A stretch of DNA of 33,157 bases from Syntrophorhabdaceae bacterium. Lineage in GTDB: Bacteria; Desulfobacterota; Syntrophorhabdia; Syntrophorhabdales; Syntrophorhabdaceae. Shown piece by piece: positions 5,905 through 33,157 of the stretch (its first letter is position 1; each line of letters opens with the position of its first letter). The translations under genes and the position numbers were made by a program. The notes under the pieces are model-generated. The model was not told where the DNA came from and did no database searches. It saw nothing but the letters and a program-made list of their open reading frames with translations. The stretch covers positions 1 to 33,157 of the forward strand of contig JAGOOA010000028.1 of the NCBI GenBank assembly GCA_017992765.1. The letters run 5' to 3'.

Positions 5905-7289
5905 GGCTTCCCCTCCTCTGATAAAGGTATGATGACCCTTACGAGGATCCCTCCAAGCATTGACGGGTGTGCGGTAATGGCGCCGTTGTGGGCCTGGACA
6001 ATGTTCCTGCAGATCGCAAGGCCCAATCCCGAGCCTCCCGATGCCCGGCTCCTTGAGGCATCCACGCGGTAGAGGCGGTCGAAGAGCTTTTCCAGGTCGC
6101 TTTCCGGGACCCCGGGGGAGGAATCCTCAAATTCGACCATCGCCTGTTTCCCGCCGCTTTGCAGGCGTACAACCAGTTTACCGCCGGCATCGGTGTATTT
6201 GAGAGAATTGTCGAAGAGGTTGGCAAAGAGCTGTCCCAGGCGCTCACCATCGGCAAAGAGGTTCGCCCTGCACCCCTCCTTAATGTCAATAGTGAGCCCT
6301 ATGCCTTTCCTGGCAAATTCGGCCTGGTGGGTCCGGGCGGAATCCCTGAGGAGATCGGCCAGGTCGAGGTCGTGCTTCCGGTATGTGAGCGCGCCAAGGT
6401 CGGAAAGGGTAAGCTGGTGAAGGTCGTCAACGAGGCGATGGAGCCTTATCACCTCCGTGTGGAGCGAACGGATGGCCTCCGGCGTGGTGTCGCGGACCCC
6501 TTCCAGAAGCGCCTCTATCTCGCCGCGCAATACGGCAAGCGGGGTCCTCAGCTCGTGGGAGATGTCGGCAACCCATTGATACCTGGCCTGTTCGTTCTTT
6601 TCGAGCGTCGCGGCCATGGAATTGAAATCCTGCGCAAGGCGTCCCAGCTCGTCAGAGGGGGCAGCAGGGACGCGGATGCTGTATTTTCCAGAGGCAAGCT
6701 CATGGATAGCCAGGGAAAGGGACTTCACGGGACGCACCAGCCTCCTCGCAAGGGGGAGGGAAAATGCTGCCGCCGCCAGCACCAGCACGAGCACTGCCGT
6801 GATAAGCGCCAGTTTTTGATCTTGAAGGAACTGAAGCTGGTGAGGGCTGAGGAACTGTTTCGGCGGCAACAGGCCGACGTACCCCACGGTCTTGTCGTTA
6901 TGGTTGATGGGCCGGTAACGGATCTCGCTGGATTCCGTTGGGTCCCCGAAGAGCGGCCTGCGGCCGGCATCGAGGATAACCAGGGGTATCCTCGGGGGCC
7001 GGGCCTTGCCCGTTATCCCGGATCCGGCGTTGTCAGGTTGTTTGTGTAGCATGCGTATGGTCCAGAACGAGGGGTCATCACGAAAGAAATCCCAGTTTCC
7101 ATGTTCCCCGTACGCATGCTCGAGATTCGTTGCCAGAGATTCCATGTTGTCATGGGCCGTGGCATTGAGATACTGGATGAACCCCCTGTTGATGCTCCAC
7201 TGCATGATAAGGAGCATGCACAGGACCGCAAGGCAGGTGGCTGCCAGGATCGAGAAGAACAGCCGGTATGTTATGCCTATCTTTACCAT
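5901..7289 (-). CDS. Membrane sensor histidine kinase (BaeS-like)
   Basis: About 462 residues from ATG 7289. An N-terminal transmembrane helix (LFFSILAATCLAVLCMLLIM) is followed by a periplasmic sensor region and a second helix (LALITAVLVLVLAAAAFSLP). A HAMP domain (RPVKSLSLAIHELASGKYSI), the phosphoacceptor His in WVADISHELRTPLAVL (about residue 250) and the HATPase N box (LFANLFDNSLKYTDAGG) and G boxes (DSSPGVPESD, SGGSGLGLAIC) complete it. The WSINRGFIQYLN stretch after the first helix is BaeS-like. The frame is open to an ATG at 7334, but 7289 has GGAGCGGG upstream and starts at the family-typical point. It senses an envelope signal, probably toxic compounds, by analogy only. Confidence 0.9.
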   Translation of the reverse strand: MVKIGITYRLFFSILAATCLAVLCMLLIMQWSINRGFIQYLNATAHDNMESLATNLEHAYGEHGNWDFFRDDPSFWTIRMLHKQPDNAGSGITGKARPPRIPLVILDAGRRPLFGDPTESSEIRYRPINHNDKTVGYVGLLPPKQFLSPHQLQFLQDQKLALITAVLVLVLAAAAFSLPLARRLVRPVKSLSLAIHELASGKYSIRVPAAPSDELGRLAQDFNSMAATLEKNEQARYQWVADISHELRTPLAVLRGEIEALLEGVRDTTPEAIRSLHTEVIRLHRLVDDLHQLTLSDLGALTYRKHDLDLADLLRDSARTHQAEFARKGIGLTIDIKEGCRANLFADGERLGQLFANLFDNSLKYTDAGGKLVVRLQSGGKQAMVEFEDSSPGVPESDLEKLFDRLYRVDASRSRASGGSGLGLAICRNIVQAHNGAITAHPSMLGGILVRVIIPLSEEGKP

Positions 7290-24572: not shown

Positions 24573-24636
24573 GCCGGACGCATTCCTCTTATAATCTTAA
24601 TCGTGGCAGCTGTCTGTTTTTTTAATGAAAAAACAT

Positions 24637-24665
24637 TTGAAAATTTATAAAGTGCGTTATATACT
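24637..24665 (+). promoter_or_regulatory. Promoter of the modABC operon
   Basis: TTGAAA (24637-24642), a 17-bp spacer and TATACT (24660-24665): five of six matches in each hexamer. Predicted start about 24672, leaving a leader of about 150 bases before modA. Confidence 0.6.
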
Positions 24666-24678
24666 ATCGGGAACAACG
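24655..24678 (+). promoter_or_regulatory. ModE-like operator overlapping the mod promoter
   Basis: CGTTATAT-N8-GAACAACG covers the -10 box and start site. The E. coli modA operator, as I recall it, is CGTTATAT-N8-ACATAACG with the same 24-bp length. The left half here is identical and the right half agrees at five of eight positions. An alternative reading is the imperfect palindrome at 24671-24688 (14 of 18). No modE gene is in the window. Confidence 0.4.
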
Positions 24679-24824
24679 ATTGTTGTACGGAAGAGTCGAC
24701 CCGCTTTCTAATAAAACCCGGCGCCGTAACAACCCGAATGCTGTTCAGCGGAACCCAGTCATCCGCGGGCACAGATAAGGCAGTTATGTGAACGAAAATG
24801 AAACAAAGAAAGGAGGAAGTATAT

Positions 24825-25577
24825 ATGAAAAACATTATTTGCAGCTTATTTCTGGTTTTAGCCGTTCTTATCTCATGTGCAATGCCTGCCCATGCAGGCG
24901 AAGTCAATGTCTCCGCTGCCGCAAGCATGAGAGACGCAGTGAATGAGCTCTCGGACGCTTTCGCGAAAAAAACTCCCGGCGTTACCTTTCAGAAAAACTT
25001 CGGCGCTTCCGGTGCAGTGGCGAAGCAAATCGAAAACGGCGCCCCCGCCGATTTGTATATTTCAGCCAACGTGAAATGGATGGATTATTTGAAAGAAAAG
25101 AAACTGGTCGTTACGGCGAGCATATCTATCCTTGCTTACAACGAAGTGGTCTTTGTGGGTAAGCCCGGTCTGAAGGTCACGAGCTTGAAGGATGTGGTGG
25201 ATCTTGAAAAGATCGCCATCGGCAGCCCAAAGAGCGTCCCTGCGGGCCAGTATGCCATGGAGGCTCTACAAAAGGCCGGCATTGACAAACAGCTTGAAAA
25301 CAAACTGGTTATGGCAAGGGACGTCCGTGAATGCCTGTTGTATGCCGACAGGGGTGAAGTGAACGGCGCTTTCGTATATAGGACGGATGCGGTGGAGATG
25401 GCAAAGAACGTAAAGATCCTCTTCACCGTACCACAGGAGCTCTACTCCCGGGTAACCTACCCCGTAGCACTGACGATCGCAGGAAGCAAGAAGGCTGATG
25501 CTGCTGCGTTTCTCAAGTTCCTCCAGTCTTCCGAGGCAAAAGTGATTCTTGAGAAACATTCTTTTGCGACACAATAA
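24825..25577 (+). CDS. modA: Molybdate ABC transporter substrate-binding protein
   Basis: A 250-residue periplasmic receptor for molybdate (and usually tungstate). The signal peptide (ICSLFLVLAVLISCAMPAHA) is followed by ModA hallmarks VNVSAAASMRDAVNELSDAF, FQKNFGASGAVAKQIENGAP, ADLYISANVKWMDYL, IGSPKSVPAGQYAMEALQKA and GEVNGAFVYRTDA. Ser residues in AASM and GASG are in the positions that bind the oxyanion. Start 24825 has AAGGAGGAAG 6-7 bases upstream; an in-frame ATG at 24798 lies before that site. First gene of modABC, 8 bases ahead of modB. Confidence 0.95.
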   Translation: MKNIICSLFLVLAVLISCAMPAHAGEVNVSAAASMRDAVNELSDAFAKKTPGVTFQKNFGASGAVAKQIENGAPADLYISANVKWMDYLKEKKLVVTASISILAYNEVVFVGKPGLKVTSLKDVVDLEKIAIGSPKSVPAGQYAMEALQKAGIDKQLENKLVMARDVRECLLYADRGEVNGAFVYRTDAVEMAKNVKILFTVPQELYSRVTYPVALTIAGSKKADAAAFLKFLQSSEAKVILEKHSFATQ

Positions 25578-25585
25578 GAGGCTAT

Positions 25586-26272
25586 ATGCCGGGCTTCACC
25601 CATGCCGATTACTCAGCCATTCTGCTGTCCGTCAAAGTGGCAACGGTGGCAACGCTCCTGTCTCTTCCCTTCGCCTTTGCCGTCGCCTACCTCATGACGT
25701 ACCGGCGGTTCCGGGGAAGGACTGCCCTTGATGTGGCCGTCAACCTTCCCTTGACCCTGCCGCCTGTGGTGATCGGCTACCTCCTGCTTATCCTGCTCGG
25801 CCAGCAGGGCATTGTCGGGAAACTATTGCTGCAGCCCCTCGGCATCAAGCTGATCTTTACCTGGAAGGCGGCAGTAATTGCCACATCGGTGGTCGGCTTT
25901 CCTCTCATGGTCAGGTCAATACGTACCGCAATGGAGGCGATTGACGAGCGGCTTGTCCAGGTCTCCCGGCTTCTTGGCGCAGCGATGCTCGATCGCATTA
26001 TTACCGTCATCCTGCCCCTTTCGGTCCGTGGGATCATAGCCGGCTCGGTGCTTATGTTTGCCCGCGGACTTGGGGAATTCGGCGCCACGGTAATCGTGGC
26101 GGGCAACATCCCCGGCGTCACCCAGACCATCCCTCTCGCCATCTATGAATACGCTAGTTCACCCAAAGGCGATGTCATGGCGCTGAGTCTTTGCGCCATC
26201 TCCATATGCATCTCGGTCGTCGTACTCGTCTTTCATGAATATCTTGGCAGACGCATCGTGAGGAGGGACTAA
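25586..26272 (+). CDS. modB: Molybdate ABC transporter permease
   Basis: A 228-residue inner-membrane permease. It has about five transmembrane helices (ATVATLLSLPFAFAVAYLMT, VVIGYLLLILL, AAVIATSVVGFPLMV, and two C-terminal). The cytoplasmic coupling loop RLLGAAMLDRIITVILPLSV followed by GLGEFGATVIVAGNIPG is the ModB/CysT EAA region. ATG 25586 has GAGG upstream. It lies between modA and modC with 8- and 2-base gaps, so the three genes form one operon that imports molybdate for molybdenum enzymes. Confidence 0.95.
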   Translation: MPGFTHADYSAILLSVKVATVATLLSLPFAFAVAYLMTYRRFRGRTALDVAVNLPLTLPPVVIGYLLLILLGQQGIVGKLLLQPLGIKLIFTWKAAVIATSVVGFPLMVRSIRTAMEAIDERLVQVSRLLGAAMLDRIITVILPLSVRGIIAGSVLMFARGLGEFGATVIVAGNIPGVTQTIPLAIYEYASSPKGDVMALSLCAISICISVVVLVFHEYLGRRIVRRD

Positions 26273-26274
26273 AG

Positions 26275-27333
26275 GTGGAGCTTCGCGTTGCGGTGGAAAA
26301 GAACTTTGGCAGATTTCTGCTTAATGCGGACCTGTCAGTCCGGGGAAAGCGGATCGGCATCTTCGGCCCGTCGGGGGGCGGCAAGTCGACCCTGGTTGGC
26401 CTCATCGCCGGACTATCCAAGCCCGACAGGGGCATCATCACCCTCGACGGAGAAATCCTTTTCGACAGCAGTTCCGGGATAAATGTGCGCACAGAGGACA
26501 GGCGCATGGGCATGGTCTTCCAGCGCCCCAGCCTGTTTCCCCATCTCAATGTAAAGGGGAACCTCCTCTACGGCTATAAGCGTTGTGCGCCCGAAAACCG
26601 CAAGATCGTTTTCGGCGACGTGGTGGAGGTCTTGAACATCGGCCGCTTGCTCGATAGCGGCGTGAAGAAGCTTTCCGGGGGCGAGAAGCAGCGGGTGGCC
26701 ATCGGCCGGGCAGTCCTCGGCAATCCGCGCCTGCTGCTGCTCGACGAGCCCTTGTCGGCCCTGGACGACAGCCTTAAGTTCCAAATCGTCCCTTTTCTGA
26801 AAAACGCCTGCGAAGCCTTTGGCATCCCGTACCTCTTTATCTCCCATTCGTTGCTGGAGATACGGATCATGACCGATCAGGTTCTCAACGTCGTCAACGG
26901 TCGCATTGTCGGCCAGGCGACGGCGGAGGCTCTTGTGCGCTCGCGGATGGGTGACAGCATGGCGGGATATATGAACCTCCTGCGGCTGTCGGCGCCTCGC
27001 CAGGTAGATGCGCTTTATGCTTATATGTGGGGCGGGCAACAACTGGTCACCGCGTCCGGCGACGACCGGCCGGAAGGCCTCTTCGAGCTCTCATCAACCG
27101 ACATCATGCTCTTCAAGAGCCATCCGGAGGCAATCAGCGCCCGTAACCTGCTGAAATGCAGGGTAGTGGGCACGTTCCAGGCGGGCAACAGAGTCGGCGT
27201 CGACCTCGACTGCAACGGCGATGGAAGGCTCGTAGCGGAGGTTGTCAGGCAGGCAGCCGACGAATTGGGCGTCAGGGCGGGAGCTGAAGTCTATGCCGCA
27301 ATCAAGTCAACGGCGTTTAGGAAGCTTGGCTAA
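26275..27333 (+). CDS. modC: Molybdate ABC transporter ATPase with C-terminal TOBE domain
   Basis: A 352-residue ATPase. Walker A is GPSGGGKSTL (about 31-40), followed by MGMVFQRPSLFPHLNVKGNL, signature LSGGEKQRVAIGRA, Walker B LLLLDEPLSALD and the switch His in LFISHSLLEIR. The last 65 residues (SARNLLKCRVVGTFQAGNRV...) form a TOBE/Mop molybdate-binding domain typical of ModC. The start is GTG at 26275, 2 bases after the modB stop, with AGGAGGG upstream. Length is normal. Confidence 0.95.
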   Translation: MELRVAVEKNFGRFLLNADLSVRGKRIGIFGPSGGGKSTLVGLIAGLSKPDRGIITLDGEILFDSSSGINVRTEDRRMGMVFQRPSLFPHLNVKGNLLYGYKRCAPENRKIVFGDVVEVLNIGRLLDSGVKKLSGGEKQRVAIGRAVLGNPRLLLLDEPLSALDDSLKFQIVPFLKNACEAFGIPYLFISHSLLEIRIMTDQVLNVVNGRIVGQATAEALVRSRMGDSMAGYMNLLRLSAPRQVDALYAYMWGGQQLVTASGDDRPEGLFELSSTDIMLFKSHPEAISARNLLKCRVVGTFQAGNRVGVDLDCNGDGRLVAEVVRQAADELGVRAGAEVYAAIKSTAFRKLG

Positions 27334-27351
27334 CTCGTCATATATAACACA

Positions 27352-27383
27352 ACCAGAACGGACCATACAAAAGCTATACAGTT
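27352..27383 (+). repeat. Dispersed 32-bp intergenic repeat, copy 2
   Basis: ACCAGAACG then ACCATACAAAAGCTATACAG, 18 bases after the modC stop. It matches copy 1 at 27 of 32 positions and shares the core TACAAAARCTATACARTT with copy 3 (31830-31847). Confidence 0.6.
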
Positions 27384-27549
27384 TCTTAATGTGAATGGAT
27401 TGCTTCCCGTTATCGGCCATGTCTTAAAATGAAGAAGGCGCTGAATTTCTAACCGTAATATTTGTAGATGCCTGCTCCATGATCATGATAGAATCACAAT
27501 TATTATCTTGCGCTCCTGCATTGCGGGGGCGCTTTATCGGGAGAGGACG

Positions 27550-28776
27550 ATGAAGAGATGCGGCGATCCAACTGTCAGGCCGGACAGGAAAGTAGCTCGT
27601 TCCGGTATCGATACCATTCTTTGCCCGATGCTGATCCTGGCATTGATAGCCTCCCTCAGCGCCTGTAACCTGCATCCTATTTCGAGATCGCTTACGCGGT
27701 ACGGCTATATGGATACTGCCGGGCGTGTCGTGATCCAGATGGAATTCAAGGACGCCCGAGCCTTTTCAGAGGGGTTGGCGGCCGTGGAGGTCGATGGAAA
27801 GTGGGGCTATATCGACCGCAACGGACAGATGGTGATCCAGCCGCAATTCCACAAAACCAGGGCCTTCAAGAATGGCAGGGCGCTGGTTGAAGTTTCACCC
27901 GATAGCTGGCGGTATATTGACCGTACCGGAAAGATCGCCATCGACACCGCTTTCAAATGGAGCATCTATGCCCGCGACTTTTCCGAAGGCCTTGCTGCGG
28001 TTTATATCGATGGCCGTGATCGTTTTGAATGTTTGTCCAGCGTGAGCCAAGGTGTCAGGGAACGATATAACGACAGCAATTCCTATGTGTCATCGCAGTT
28101 CTGCGGACGGTGGGGTTTTATCGGCCCGACCGGCGCTTTTACCATCGAGCCGCAGTTCATTGAGGCCTTCAGCTTTTCGGATGGCCTCGCCGCGGTCAGG
28201 GTGCGCAGCCGGGACGTTGACGACCAAAAGCGTTGGCTGTACGGCTACATTAACCACACCGGCGATATGGTAATTGCACCACAGTTCGAAGCGGCATTCG
28301 ATTTCTCCGACGGCATTGCCCGTGTCGTCATCGACGGCCGCAGGGGGTTCATCGATAAGACCGGGAAAAGGCTGACGGAGGCGACATTCGACGATGCCAA
28401 AGACTTCCACGAGGGGCTGGCCCAGGTCAAGATCGGGGACCGGTGGGGCTATATCGATAAGACCGGAAAGATTGCGATCCCGGCCGAATTCACGATGGCC
28501 GGCAGATTTTCAGAAGGGCTGGCCGCCGCGAGACGTTCGGGCATACTCGGAGGGTACATCGACCGAACGGGCACCATGGTCATCAGCGAACAGTTTGGCG
28601 TGGCATGGGCATTTTCCGATGGGCTTGCACGCGTGAAGATCGGGGACGGCCGTGGGCTCTTCGACAACTGGGGGTATATCGACAAGTCCGGCAAAGTCGT
28701 CATATCCCGCACCCTCAAGGCAGGATGGCCCTTCAGCGAAGGGCTTGCATTAGTTGGGAACGGCGGGCTGATTTAG
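27550..28776 (+). CDS. WG-repeat lipoprotein
   Basis: 408 residues. The signal peptide ends SLSAC, a lipobox-like site followed by NLHP. Nine WG-type repeats follow, each about 40-45 residues with a (W/Y)GYIDxxG turn: YGYMDTAG, WGYIDRNG, WRYIDRTG, WGFIGPTG, YGYINHTG, RGFIDKTG, WGYIDKTG, GGYIDRTG and WGYIDKSG. Each repeat ends FSEGLAxV or similar. WG repeats form small beta units arranged as a solenoid or propeller and are thought to mediate binding at the cell surface. Start 27550 has GGGAGAGG upstream; the frame is open to 27508 without a site. It stands alone after modABC. Confidence 0.88.
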   Translation: MKRCGDPTVRPDRKVARSGIDTILCPMLILALIASLSACNLHPISRSLTRYGYMDTAGRVVIQMEFKDARAFSEGLAAVEVDGKWGYIDRNGQMVIQPQFHKTRAFKNGRALVEVSPDSWRYIDRTGKIAIDTAFKWSIYARDFSEGLAAVYIDGRDRFECLSSVSQGVRERYNDSNSYVSSQFCGRWGFIGPTGAFTIEPQFIEAFSFSDGLAAVRVRSRDVDDQKRWLYGYINHTGDMVIAPQFEAAFDFSDGIARVVIDGRRGFIDKTGKRLTEATFDDAKDFHEGLAQVKIGDRWGYIDKTGKIAIPAEFTMAGRFSEGLAAARRSGILGGYIDRTGTMVISEQFGVAWAFSDGLARVKIGDGRGLFDNWGYIDKSGKVVISRTLKAGWPFSEGLALVGNGGLI

Positions 28777-28965
28777 CGAACCCAGCTCAGCGATCGTTTC
28801 ACGAATAGCGATGTTTGCGTTACTTCATTTCGACCGGCAATTAAGTCTATTGCGAAAGCCCAACCTGATAGCCTTGCAGGTGTCATCAATAACCACGGCC
28901 TTAACACACCGGCCTTGTTGCTTACGATATTGGCAGCGATGAGCGTGCAGGGGAAAAGATAACGC

Positions 28966-28993
28966 TTGCAAACGTTCTGCACGTTCTTATAAT
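28966..28993 (+). promoter_or_regulatory. Promoter in the 28.8-29.2 kb gap
   Basis: TTGCAA (28966-28971), a 16-bp spacer and a perfect TATAAT (28988-28993). It would drive the decayed ORF at 29051 and the Cys-rich gene at 29237. From the WG gene stop to here (28777-28965) no gene or clear signal is seen. Confidence 0.5.
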
Positions 28994-29050
28994 AATTATC
29001 TTAAAGCACACAGGCTTCTTCCGGTGGAGCCCGTGAGAGGAAAAATGACA

Positions 29051-29130
29051 ATGAAAAAATGCTGCTTGTTATGGCAACAATAACCCTCCTGCTGATGCGT
29101 GCCTTCCCAAGCGGAGCGTGGCAGTATTAA
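29051..29130 (+). pseudogene. Frameshifted remnant of an exported-protein gene
   Basis: With a good ribosome site (GAGAGGAAAA), ATG 29051 reads only ten codons. One base shift in the A-run at 29054-29059 opens MLLVMATITLLLMRAFPSGA then WQY and a stop at 29130. This matches the signal peptide of the gene at 32461 (MKRFPLVMATAALLVVYSSS then GEAWEV), including LVMAT and the xGxAW end. It looks like the decayed 5' end of a paralogue. Confidence 0.45.
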
Positions 29131-29236
29131 AAGGCAAGACGGGAAGCCATGCGGAAACGGACCACACAAGCATTGACCCGCTGGCATGAAAGAGATTGAT
29201 TTACGCAATTTCAATAATGAAAGGAGGAAAAGGAGA

Positions 29237-29575
29237 ATGAAAATTCCATTCAAGGGTCTCTGTTCTTTAGCAATAGCCGCAGCGCTCATGGCCGCGTATT
29301 ATGCCGCGGATCACAAGCAGGCAGGTAAATGTCCATACCCCCCGTATTTTACAAAATTTACCAGCATTTTTATGCCGGGTAGCGCCAATGCAGGGTCTGC
29401 ATGCATAGCCTGCACGGCCTGCAATGATACAGTGATATTTAATGGCTGGGAGAAATGTATGCAAACGTGTATCCAGGTCTTAGGATCGGCTCAGGTACGT
29501 GAAGGCGTCTCAGGCCACTGTCAAGTGATATGTAACGAGGCGCGCGACGCAGTAAAGAAGAATTGCGGGAACTGA
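29237..29575 (+). CDS. Small exported Cys-rich protein with twin CX3C motif
   Basis: 112 residues. The N-terminal signal or anchor helix is FKGLCSLAIAAALMAAYYAA. The exported part has CIACTAC (CX2CX2C) followed by KCMQTC and HCQVIC, two CX3C motifs about 20 residues apart, and a final C. Twin CX3C spacing is the signature of helical-hairpin proteins stapled by two disulfides, but no family is recognised. Start 29237 has AAAGGAGG and AAGGAGA upstream; the longer frame to 29186 has no site. It stands alone behind the promoter at 28966. The following 290 bases hold no gene. Confidence 0.7.
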   Translation: MKIPFKGLCSLAIAAALMAAYYAADHKQAGKCPYPPYFTKFTSIFMPGSANAGSACIACTACNDTVIFNGWEKCMQTCIQVLGSAQVREGVSGHCQVICNEARDAVKKNCGN

Positions 29576-29866
29576 CTCCCACGGTATGGCCATCTTTAGC
29601 ATTCCCTCAACGGGCCATCCCTGCTTGCCTTAGTGTTGCGATGATCCGTTCCGGTTTATTGGGGGGCAGGCCATTTTTCTTATTTTCCTATTTCATACAC
29701 AATTCCGATCCCTAATAAAAAATAGCTGAACTGCGACATAACATGTGATACAAGTATTGAGAGGAGAATAGATCGGTATTATGTAAAAATGAAAAAATGG
29801 AGCAGCTCCCGTTTCAACCGGGCACCCTTCTGGTCCCACAAACAAAATAGTGAAAGGAGAAAATAT

Positions 29867-30895
29867 ATGAAATTTTATATGCTGGTTGGATTTATATTCA
29901 TCACATTAATGGGAACCGCCACGACAGAGGCCATATCTGCGGATCCAGGCAAAGATAATCGTCAAAGCCAGCCGGCAGTCTCCGACAAATGCAAGGAGCT
30001 GACAAGCAGGCTGGATATCGATCTCAAGGAAGTCGTGCAGGCTGGTTGTCAACCTTCACAGGCACAGATCTCCAAGCTGATGGACAACCCCGTGGGCAAC
30101 CTTGTGGTCGTAGCCAACCAGTTCAATTGGACTCAACTCAAGGGCCCCAATATTAAGGGGAGTAAGGATGCCTATGTTTACAAACTGACCCCCACTTTCC
30201 CGATACCCCTCGGCGAATCCTGGAACCTGATCAACCGGCCGGTTTTTTCCTTACCCAGCGTCCCGGTGAAGAGAAAGGTCGGCAAGCTGATCGGGATGAG
30301 CGCGGGAGAGATCATACACCAGCCGGCCCTTTTTTCTACGGTCCGCGATCCCTTCGGCCGTACGACGGGATTTGGGGACCTTGCCTATGTCGGGTTGTTG
30401 TCGCCGAAAAAGCCTGACAAGGTCGGGGAGGGGATATTCATCTGGGGCATAGGCCCGGCCCTAATCTTTCCTACGGCAAGCGAAGACGTCCTCGGCCAGG
30501 GCAAGTATCAGGCGGGGCCGGCGGCGGTCGCAGCTTATATCGGGAAGGATTGGGTGTTCGGCCTCTTCCCGCAGCATTGGTGGTCCTACGCGGGCGACAG
30601 CGATCGCGCCAGTACGCGCGCATCAAACATTCAGTACTTCATTTACTATAATATCACCAGCACCGTAAAAATTGGCATGAGCCCGAATGTCACCATCGAT
30701 TGGAATGCTGCCGGGGGAGATATGGTGACGCTCCCGGTAGGGCTGGGAATCAACTGGATGGCCAAAATGGGGAAGCTTCCGGTGCGCATGGGGATCGAGG
30801 GGTATTATTCGGCTATCCACCCTGAGAACAGCATGGGTTCGCGCTTGGGCTTGCGTTTTACGTTTACTCCGGTAATCCCGACTTTCCTGTTTTAA
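29867..30895 (+). CDS. Outer-membrane beta-barrel protein (transporter-like family)
   Basis: 342 residues. The signal peptide (MLVGFIFITLMGTATTEAIS, then AD) is followed by a short linker with two cysteines (DKCKELTSRL, QAGCQPSQ). The rest is a beta-rich body typical of a conserved outer-membrane family: NLVVVANQFNWTQ, YVYKLTPTFPIPLGESWNLI, GFGDLAYVGLLSPKK, FIWGIGPALIFPTASEDVLG, GKYQAGPAAVAAYIGKDWVF, NIQYFIYYNIT and a C-terminal aromatic LGLRFTFTPVIPTFLF as barrel proteins need. Homologues are often called neuromedin U or phenol-degradation MetA-like, without proven function. Start 29867 has GAAAGGAG upstream. Confidence 0.8.
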   Translation: MKFYMLVGFIFITLMGTATTEAISADPGKDNRQSQPAVSDKCKELTSRLDIDLKEVVQAGCQPSQAQISKLMDNPVGNLVVVANQFNWTQLKGPNIKGSKDAYVYKLTPTFPIPLGESWNLINRPVFSLPSVPVKRKVGKLIGMSAGEIIHQPALFSTVRDPFGRTTGFGDLAYVGLLSPKKPDKVGEGIFIWGIGPALIFPTASEDVLGQGKYQAGPAAVAAYIGKDWVFGLFPQHWWSYAGDSDRASTRASNIQYFIYYNITSTVKIGMSPNVTIDWNAAGGDMVTLPVGLGINWMAKMGKLPVRMGIEGYYSAIHPENSMGSRLGLRFTFTPVIPTFLF

Positions 30896-31054
30896 CAAGC
30901 CGCTTGGGCCTTAGTAATACACAATTTGCGGCCTATTATGGAGATTCATAAAATATAGATACCTTTTATCAGCAACTTTTTTGGTGATCGTTCATTTTGA
31001 TGTTCGTTTAATATGCTTGCCTTGTAGATACCGCGTTATTCACGCCGACATAGG

Positions 31055-31621
31055 CTATTTTACTGATGCGGGCGCAAAGAGCGACAACACGCCCAGCAAA
31101 ATGAACAGCGCGGCAGCTATCCAGTGCATTATTTTCATATTGATCCGATGTGTCAGTTTTTCACCTACCCATACCGCCGGCACATTGGCGATCATCATGC
31201 CAAGCGTTGTTCCCATGACGACCGCGACCAATGAATCGTAGCGGGCAGCCAGGGCTATTGTCGCCAATTGGGTCTTATCGCCCATCTCGACAAGGAAAAA
31301 GGCGATCAGGGTGGTAACAAATACACCTGCACCCCTCAGCTTCTGATTCTCATCCAATGTATCCGGTTTCAGCGCCCATATCCCGAACGCAAAGAAAGAG
31401 ATGGCCACGATCCATCTGATGGTTTTCGGGGAAACAAGAGAGGCTAGCCAGGCGCCCACATAGCCGGCAAAAAAATGATTGGCGAGAGTGGCGAAGAGGA
31501 TCCCCAGGATGATCGGCACCCTGTGCTTGAGTTTTGCAGCAAGAACGAATGATAAAAGTTGTGTCTTGTCGCCCATCTCTGCAAGTGCGACGATCGACAT
31601 TGACAGGAAAAAGGATTCCAT
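31055..31621 (-). CDS. TMEM165/GDT1 (UPF0016) family manganese exporter
   Basis: A 188-residue inner-membrane cation transporter with six predicted helices in two repeats. Each repeat carries the family motif E-x-G-D-K-T: AEMGDKTQLL (E15) and VEMGDKTQLA (E112). Bacterial members such as MneA of Vibrio export Mn2+. Here the role is strongly supported by a manganese riboswitch directly upstream. GGAGG sits 5 bases before the ATG at 31621. It is monocistronic and converges on the beta-barrel gene across 159 bases without a clear terminator. Confidence 0.92.
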   Translation of the reverse strand: MESFFLSMSIVALAEMGDKTQLLSFVLAAKLKHRVPIILGILFATLANHFFAGYVGAWLASLVSPKTIRWIVAISFFAFGIWALKPDTLDENQKLRGAGVFVTTLIAFFLVEMGDKTQLATIALAARYDSLVAVVMGTTLGMMIANVPAVWVGEKLTHRINMKIMHWIAAALFILLGVLSLFAPASVK

Positions 31622-31643
31622 TGGGCCTCCTTACGATCAAAAT

Positions 31644-31694
31644 AAAAAAGCGAGAGCCAAGCCGGCGTTATAATGCCGGCCTGAAGCTCTCGCT
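31644..31694 (-). terminator. Riboswitch-controlled intrinsic terminator
   Basis: On the minus strand AGCGAGAGC (31694-31686) pairs with GCTCTCGCT (31657-31649), with an inner GCCGGC/GCCGGC stem, followed by a run of T. The 5' arm overlaps the aptamer core and P1, so ligand binding and termination exclude each other. Confidence 0.8.
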
Positions 31695-31776
31695 AATTGA
31701 TCCTATTGACCAACGGCAAGGCCAGGCCCGAAGACCAGTATGTTGACCTTGCCTGTTTAGCTACTCCCCTTCAGGG
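31680..31776 (-). promoter_or_regulatory. yybP-ykoY manganese riboswitch
   Basis: Reading the minus strand: CCTGAAG (31775-31769, P1), AGGGGAGTAGC, GGTCAACA, GGGCCTGGCCTTGCC, GCGAGAG and CTTCAGG (31686-31680, P1 partner). This order and these segments are the consensus of the yybP-ykoY Mn2+ aptamer. It lies 59 bases ahead of a TMEM165-type exporter. P1 formation sequesters the terminator's 5' arm, so Mn2+ should turn the gene on. Confidence 0.88.
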
Positions 31777-31787
31777 ATTGTGTATAA

Positions 31788-31816
31788 AGTATACATAACG
31801 CGCCCCACCTATGCAA
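31788..31816 (-). promoter_or_regulatory. Promoter of the Mn-riboswitch transcript
   Basis: On the minus strand TTGCAT (31816-31811), a 17-bp spacer and TATACT (31793-31788). Predicted start near 31781, just before the aptamer. Confidence 0.6.
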
Positions 31817-31829
31817 CAACTAAGATCGA

Positions 31830-31847
31830 TACAAAAACTATACAATT
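31830..31847 (+). repeat. Dispersed intergenic repeat, copy 3 (core only)
   Basis: TACAAAAACTATACAATT matches the core of copy 2 at 16 of 18 positions. It lies just upstream of the riboswitch promoter and 46 bases from the tRNA fragment; the ACCAGAACG part is not conserved here. Confidence 0.5.
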
Positions 31848-31893
31848 TTGAGGGGTGAAAGAACCTCTGTGATGTGTAACCTATTGAAAAAAC

Positions 31894-31938
31894 TGGTGGA
31901 GCTGAAGGGGATCGAACCCTCGACCTCTTGACTGCCAG
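31894..31938 (-). other. 3' half of tRNA-Ala(GGC): probable attachment-site remnant
   Basis: On the minus strand 45 bases correspond to tRNA positions 32-76. They comprise anticodon loop CTGGCAG with GGC at 34-36, 3' stem TCAAG, variable loop AGGTC, T-arm GAGGG-TTCGATC-CCCTT, acceptor CAGCTCC with the Ala-specific U70, A73 and CCA. No D-arm or 5' acceptor exists upstream; the sequence before C32 does not pair with TCAAG. A break exactly at the anticodon loop is the usual crossover point of tyrosine integrases. The intact gene is expected beyond the right edge. Confidence 0.7.
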
Positions 31939-32370
31939 ATAGGCCTGGAGGCAGCCGGTAAACTATCCCTTGCTCTCTTCTGCTTGATATTGCTGGAAAA
32001 AGGAGAGGGCAAGGGGTTTTTTCTTTGACGATATTCTCCCTTATTTGACGATTCTATTTCACATTTACTTCACAGTGGAAAAGAATTCTTTTTCCAGACC
32101 CCCCTCTACCGAACAGAATTTCAAAAGGATCCCCACCATATGGCCTTTACGTCAACCTCGTATGTAAAAATCTCTCAATAAGAAACAAATTAGGCTTTCC
32201 CCATATCAAAAACGAGCTGGATAGGTAGCACTTCCTGCGATCATGAGTCTCCTTTTCTCTTCTTGCTGCCTCATTACAATCTGTAATACCGGAGGCGCCT
32301 TCATCCAAAGAAGCTGACACCTCTTGCACCATCGTTGACAGGTACCGTGAACCATGAAACGAAAATATCC
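31939..32370. other. Gene-free, AT-richer stretch next to the att remnant
   Basis: No convincing gene on either strand. It contains two direct copies of TTTGACGAT 20 bp apart (32024-32032 and 32044-32052) and a palindrome GGAAAAGAATTCTTTTTCC (32077-32095). These could be integrase arm sites or regulatory sequence; neither is proven. Confidence 0.5.
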
Positions 32371-32400
32371 TTGCAAAACCTCTACAAACTTGCATACTAT
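32371..32400 (+). promoter_or_regulatory. Candidate promoter for the Cys-rich gene at 32461
   Basis: TTGCAA (32371-32376), an 18-bp spacer and TACTAT (32395-32400), about 55 bases before the gene. Confidence 0.35.
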
Positions 32401-32460
32401 TTTGTATGGCACAGACAAGATTCGTAATGGAATAAAGATGAGAAACAGGGGGAAGACATC

Positions 32461-32853
32461 ATGAAAAGGTTTCCGCTCGTTATGGCAACCGCGGCGCTTC
32501 TGGTGGTGTACTCCTCCTCGGGGGAGGCATGGGAAGTAAAGGTCAAGAACTCGTGCCATGCAGATGTCGAGATCTTTGTCAAAGGGCAGGACCTGACCTA
32601 CTTTGATTCTGTTGACTGCAAGGTGAAGGTGGCGAGTGGCGAGACGGGAATCTGCAGGCTGCGCGGGGGGCTATGCTCAAGCAAGATCTCCGGACATTAT
32701 TATGTGAAAGATTCTTCTGGGAAAACCTATGAAGAAAAGCTTGACCCCATCTTCTGCACTACCCCCAACGTTTTTTTTAAAACTGCGACGTGCTGCTGGA
32801 ATGTGAATGCGGAGGTCACCACGTCAGGTCATTGTCGTCTTGAACTGCGTTAG
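32461..32853 (+). CDS. Small Cys-rich exported protein, function unknown
   Basis: 130 residues. The signal peptide is MKRFPLVMATAALLVVYSSS, with probable cleavage near GEA-W. The mature part WEVKVKNSCHADVEIFVKGQ is followed by eight cysteines in total, including TCC-W, and ends VTTSGHCRLELR. The early VKVxN strand and the TATC(C)W...LEL ending recall the protein at 19803-20204, and its signal peptide matches the remnant at 29051. AGGGGGA precedes the ATG. No domain is recognised. A disulfide-bonded beta-sandwich secreted protein is the most that can be said. It lies on the inferred element side of the tRNA remnant. Confidence 0.65.
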   Translation: MKRFPLVMATAALLVVYSSSGEAWEVKVKNSCHADVEIFVKGQDLTYFDSVDCKVKVASGETGICRLRGGLCSSKISGHYYVKDSSGKTYEEKLDPIFCTTPNVFFKTATCCWNVNAEVTTSGHCRLELR

Positions 32854-33005
32854 GCGACCCTTCGTTGGCAATATGGATCGACAGTTGCTTCATAGGGGGA
32901 AAGGAAACACAGTAATCTCTTTCTCTCCATAATCATCCATTCCCTCTCGGCTGCCCCCCATTCGCTTGTAGGTGACAATTCACACCTGTAATTGGCATTC
33001 ATCGT

Positions 33006-33157
33006 TCATCCCCCGCTATGCATCCTTGTGATAATTTCCTGCAGAATCAAAGAACCGGCGTTCTCCGGGTTATAGTCGACGCTCGCCGGCAAAAGAGGCC
33101 TCAGATCATTGATAAATCCCGGATGCTTCAGCTTGTCCAGTACGTTTGCTTTCAGGC
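33006..33157 (-). CDS. C-terminus of a probable AbiEii-type nucleotidyltransferase toxin (partial)
   Basis: An open minus-strand frame enters from the right edge and ends at TGA 33008-33006, giving 49 residues. The sequence (VLDKLKHPGFINDLRPLLPA, SVDYNPENAG, SLILQEIITRM) resembles the end of AbiEii/AbiGii-type nucleotidyltransferases, which often close with a 'p.F..DlrplLp' segment. These are toxins of type IV toxin-antitoxin and abortive-infection systems, common on integrated elements. The catalytic part lies outside the window, so this is a tentative call. Confidence 0.4.
   Translation of the reverse strand, partial: LKANVLDKLKHPGFINDLRPLLPASVDYNPENAGSLILQEIITRMHSGG

Follow-up and report, generated by a model that had tools for sequence, protein, structure and literature searches.

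The window analysed here is the whole of contig C40 (33,157 bases), one of the 71 contigs of genome bin G000 (2.42 Mb). Close to its right end, at 31894-31938 on the minus strand, lies a displaced 3' half of a tRNA-Ala(GGC) gene, which covers tRNA positions 32-76 including the CCA and has no 5' half; read from 31938 down to 31894 its sequence is CTGGCAGTCAAGAGGTCGAGGGTTCGATCCCCTTCAGCTCCACCA. All of its bases (45/45) are identical to the same positions of the one other copy in the bin, a complete tRNA-Ala(GGC) gene on the plus strand of contig C22 (47227-47302), and an exact identity of this length lies far beyond chance. The homology from position 32 to the CCA that the first-pass annotation had claimed is hence exact, and its claim that the stem partner is absent also holds, the DNA beyond 31938 being unlike a tRNA 5' half. 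No match to the 5' half is found anywhere else in the window either, and ARAGORN reports no complete tRNA in it. The fragment is a terminal piece of the gene that runs to the CCA and not an internal one, as Islander demands of the displaced copy at a tRNA-site island. It also gives a tmRNA match in Rfam (18.6 bits, cut-off 47), but this score reflects the common tRNA-like 3' end and the exact tRNA-Ala match is preferred. An exact copy of the 39-base 3' part is absent from the viral contig collection.

The fragment begins with the anticodon-loop heptamer CTGGCAG (31932-31938, minus strand; tRNA positions 32-38) and continues past the CCA into a trailer (31829-31893, minus strand), with which it makes a 110-base block that is similar in relatives. 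Six further displaced copies occur in four relatives (one in G003, at a distance of 37.6 kb from the intact gene there, two in G004, two in G022 and one in G043), and all seven, the window's included, start exactly at tRNA position 32 in the anticodon loop, so that the heptamer forms the left edge of 7/7 copies. This sharp common edge favours a crossover in the anticodon loop, with CTGGCAG as the likely region of strand exchange. Group I introns also insert in the anticodon loop of tRNA genes, and a break at this point could in principle reflect such an intron, or a split or permuted tRNA gene. This is contradicted by the intact tRNA-Ala(GGC) on C22; moreover, no intron family is matched in 28-33 kb and the window holds no 5' half, and we consider an explanation of this kind very improbable. 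The 110-base block (to window 31829) is 86-99% identical to its counterparts in G001, G003 (intact copy) and G004 (three copies), and the trailers of the intact G004 copy and of the displaced window copy share 99% identity. Because the trailers are near-identical, the copy from the element and the copy from the chromosome are indistinguishable, and the crossover may have fallen anywhere in the repeat. Of the 3,919 tRNA islands in Islander, 2,083 have an anticodon-centred site and 3,760 have a 3' fragment, and an anticodon-centred site with a displaced 3' fragment is a standard pattern (PMC4383910). The trailer also carries a direct repeat, TTGTATAGTTT/TTGTAT with 11-base spacing (31829-31850, minus strand), which is kept in most copies of the block and could be, as a guess, a putative integrase arm site.

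Contig C22 terminates at 47315, 13 bases beyond the CCA of its tRNA-Ala(GGC) gene, and its last 58 bases are the reverse complement of window 31881-31938. This exact 58-base repeat (minus strand in the window) therefore extends 13 bases past the CCA and is halted only by the end of C22. An intact tRNA-Ala(GGC) sharing the 45-mer had been anticipated to the right of the window, and such a gene is present in the same bin, on a different contig whose sequence stops within the repeat. The two contigs would accordingly meet at the 58-base repeat, with no single contig spanning the island between them, and this island would be missing from the bin except for window 31939-33157. A contig overlapping the right end of the window was sought and none was found.

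An arrangement of this kind might also arise from a mixed population and its assembly. Some cells would then have an empty site, with C22 joined directly to C40, and others would carry the island, the assembly having followed a single route across the 58-base repeat; the island would be real but not fixed. C22 enters the same trailer as C40 for 13 bases and then stops, as such a mixture predicts, and contigs also break at tRNA-Ala(GGC) in G030, G033 and G011, where the overlaps of 55, 127 and 141 bases are typical assembly k-mers. However, no usual k-mer length corresponds to the 58-base overlap in G000, and a k-mer could not be derived from the 43 other contig ends of this bin. Some cells must, moreover, still carry the 3' half preceded by foreign DNA: a false join could change what adjoins the repeat on one side, yet a molecule in which the 3' half stands behind foreign DNA would exist all the same. 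We regard a mixed population as unlikely.

The order of the flanks can be read from relatives of the same genus. In G001, homologues of C22 come first on contig C49; they are followed by a single intact tRNA-Ala(GGC), and this in turn by homologues of the window from 17129 down to 348. Similarly, contig C2 of G004 carries C22 homologues, an intact tRNA (3' half at 51655-51699) and displaced 3' halves at 60492 and 63346, beyond which follows a homologue of the window from 24611 down to 18636. Since both genomes show the same order, the left part of the window (348-24611, found as collinear pieces on these two contigs, which also bear the tRNA and the C22 flank) is chromosomal DNA that flanks the tRNA-Ala(GGC) locus downstream, which puts the island on the side of higher window coordinates. 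The direction proposed for the element from the minus orientation of the fragment is thereby borne out on single contigs. The same flank order indicates, indirectly, that the 3' fragment is downstream of the tRNA and in the same orientation, which is the arrangement that Islander asks for. Complete gene and fragment both occur in G000, on C22 and C40 respectively, and these contigs probably belong to the same replicon, as Islander also demands, because their flanks are collinear on one contig in G001 and G004. The comparison with an empty site that had been suggested is answered in part: with its single tRNA copy G001 offers a near-empty site, although not a base-exact one because genes in both flanks vary within the genus.

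To the right of the fragment, 1,219 bases (31939-33157) are visible before the contig ends, and they have no homology at the tRNA locus of relatives. Their GC is 0.471, compared with 0.570 +/- 0.035 for 1.2-kb windows of 1-31800. The first-pass annotation was thus correct that the DNA to the right is AT-richer, although this lends its argument little weight since the GC of 29-30 kb, to the left of the fragment, is equally low. Just inside the island end stands a terminator-like hairpin followed by a T run (31965-32022, plus strand; fold -31.4 kcal/mol, z -2.7), and a mir-204 match in Rfam proves to be this hairpin. From 32231 to 33157 the DNA matches contigs elsewhere in G003 and G004 at 96.7% identity. 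It includes a plus-strand ORF of 130 aa (32461-32853) that is cysteine-rich, with an apparent signal peptide and no family match; the DNA is 96.7% identical in both relatives, where the frame is shorter (81 aa).

At the contig edge, 33009-33157 on the minus strand encodes the last 49 residues of a nucleotidyltransferase toxin of the AbiEii type, whose gene is truncated where the contig stops. The suspected AbiEii toxin end is real, as 49/49 residues match the C-terminus of a 266-aa AbiEii (PF08843, 2.6e-36) that adjoins AbiEi (PF09407, 4.1e-33) on contig C21 of G004 and contig C29 of G003. The likeness to an AbiE system lies in this identity to proteins that adjoin AbiEi; the difference is that the window contig holds just 49 AbiEii residues and that the AbiEi partner is not seen in G000. 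There is no tRNA-Ala on either of the two relatives' contigs, so the AbiE gene beyond the fragment otherwise sits away from the tRNA-Ala(GGC) locus (in G003 and G004), which supports the view that this DNA belongs to an integrated island. These 16.3-kb contigs belong to two different species of the genus and are identical to each other over 16 kb. Besides the AbiEi/AbiEii pair they carry a candidate defence pair (PDC-M05A/B) and an apparent ADP-ribosylglycohydrolase-like gene, and their identity may reflect either a recent transfer or the same contig binned twice. Two intergenic stretches of the island end are possibly dispersed repeats: 32044-32228 is similar (76-82%) to single or repeated places on contig C29 of G005 and contig C35 of G004, and 32302-32460 is 79% similar to 38037-38194 of contig C15 in G000 itself.

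Integrases are associated with the same site in relatives. In G004, a tyrosine integrase of 345 aa (C2, 54868-55905) lies after the intact tRNA and before the first displaced copy, and a more distant relative of it is held by the G022 array; equivalent scars are thus accompanied by an integrase in both genomes. In three other genera (G010, G012 and G018), relatives of the G004 integrase converge on tRNA-Ala(GGC), their genes ending 14, 23 and 14 bases, respectively, from the 3' end of the intact tRNA. For the elements of G010 and G012 that bear these integrases, no second att copy was found on the stretches searched. No fitting integrase is present in the visible 1.2 kb of the island or elsewhere in bin G000, from which most of the island is missing. 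The integrase matches in G000 amount to two short XerC/XerD-like proteins, one integrase at the end of contig C48 and a remnant on contig C60. The integrase on C48 (about 94857-96342, at the contig end) has an arm DNA-binding domain and lies just downstream of tRNA-Ser(GGA), where it marks a second island in this genome; it is rejected as the integrase of the window island as it adjoins tRNA-Ser(GGA) in G003 and G004 too. The C60 remnant is likewise rejected, as it adjoins tRNA-Arg(TCT). It is a 126-aa C-terminal piece (6047-6710) of an integrase related to the tRNA-Ala integrase, and may be a trace of a third island that G000 has lost.

The fragment at 31894-31938 is best explained as the attR scar of a genomic island that a tyrosine integrase inserted into tRNA-Ala(GGC), the island extending toward higher coordinates, and we put the probability of this reading at about 0.88. 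The attP of the island would have carried a copy of the tRNA 3' half, and the tyrosine integrase would have recombined it with the chromosomal tRNA-Ala(GGC) at CTGGCAG in the anticodon loop. The copy brought by the island would then restore the complete tRNA gene at the near end, where C22 now stops, while the original 3' half would be displaced to the far end, where it is found in the window. The island would accordingly start at the right end of C22, continue in DNA that the bin lacks and finish with window 33157-31939, its last genes including the AbiE-type toxin gene. We infer the action of an integrase on the window copy, the exact crossover bases and the island content between the two contigs. 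The locus resembles Islander-type tRNA islands (subsite 'A'; PMC4383910) in its intact tRNA with a displaced 3' fragment in the expected orientation, in the anticodon-loop break and in the related integrases beside the same tRNA in relatives. Islander further requires an integrase gene inside the island and a length of 2-200 kb (PMC4383910), whereas in G000 the two ends are on separate contigs and neither integrase nor island length is visible. The mechanism is already known from textbooks, and the locus would be a standard tRNA-site genomic island boundary; what the fragment adds is that one end is fixed to the base for an island that genome binning has mostly lost.

The chromosome side of the fragment is itself variable within the genus, and for this reason the fragment is no simple divider between core and island. 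A stretch of 7.2 kb (24612-31828), which holds ABC transporter genes and genes for a WG-repeat protein and a GDT1-type cation transporter, is lacking in G004, where the flank follows the last tRNA fragment without it, and is unmatched at the locus in G001. The part with the GDT1-type gene is found in G005, where it follows directly on the same trailer, at the edge of a contig. The stretch may represent either an older unit in a tandem array or normal chromosomal DNA that the other genomes have lost, and the arrangement in G005 fits either view alike. In the first case the fragment would be the inner scar of an array whose older unit, 24612-31828, has lost its outer scar; it would then part two islands, and not island from chromosome. 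Tandem tRNA-site arrays are known (PMC4383910), and G004 and G022 resemble them in that two displaced 3' halves follow a single intact tRNA. They differ in that Islander demands an integrase for each unit, whereas no integrase is matched in the 2.8-kb second unit of G004, and in that a single scar is visible in the window. The absence of the 7.2 kb from the locus in relatives and its start at the trailer in G005 also speak for an array in G000. However, a search for a decayed second tRNA or a further trailer copy near 24611 found none, and the genes of the stretch are mainly ordinary transport genes without mobility functions. Several displaced fragments, each unit with its integrase, would be expected of an array, and the window shows one fragment and none near 24611. 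An array is doubtful, if somewhat less so than a mixed population, and it would refine the attR reading more than oppose it. The GDT1-type gene (31055-31621, minus strand) has directly upstream a match to the yybP-ykoY manganese riboswitch (31695-31775, minus strand; 24.4 bits, cut-off 45, E 8e-4), which is conserved on contig C37 of G005 and is probably a shortened but real Mn riboswitch.

An island at this position, together with those in relatives, shows tRNA-Ala(GGC) to be a site where foreign DNA has repeatedly entered the genomes of an uncultured deltaproteobacterial lineage. A bolder and rather unlikely extension is that the gene serves as a family-wide accretion site, where islands are stacked in tandem through the 110-base block, units without an integrase, for instance the 37.5-kb one in G003, are moved by the integrases of their neighbours and 24.6-31.8 kb of the window is one older unit. 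The inserts range from the small integrase-bearing element of G004 to a metabolic block of 37.5 kb in G003. The latter is an island of about 37.5 kb (C3, 3697-41250) bounded by an intact tRNA-Ala(GGC) on one side and a displaced 3' half on the other, and no integrase is matched in it. Its genes encode hydantoinase A/B-type carboxylase subunits, a thiolase and an MMPL transporter, as well as URO-D/B12-binding methyltransferase proteins and a RACo-type activator, and it looks like a catabolic island.
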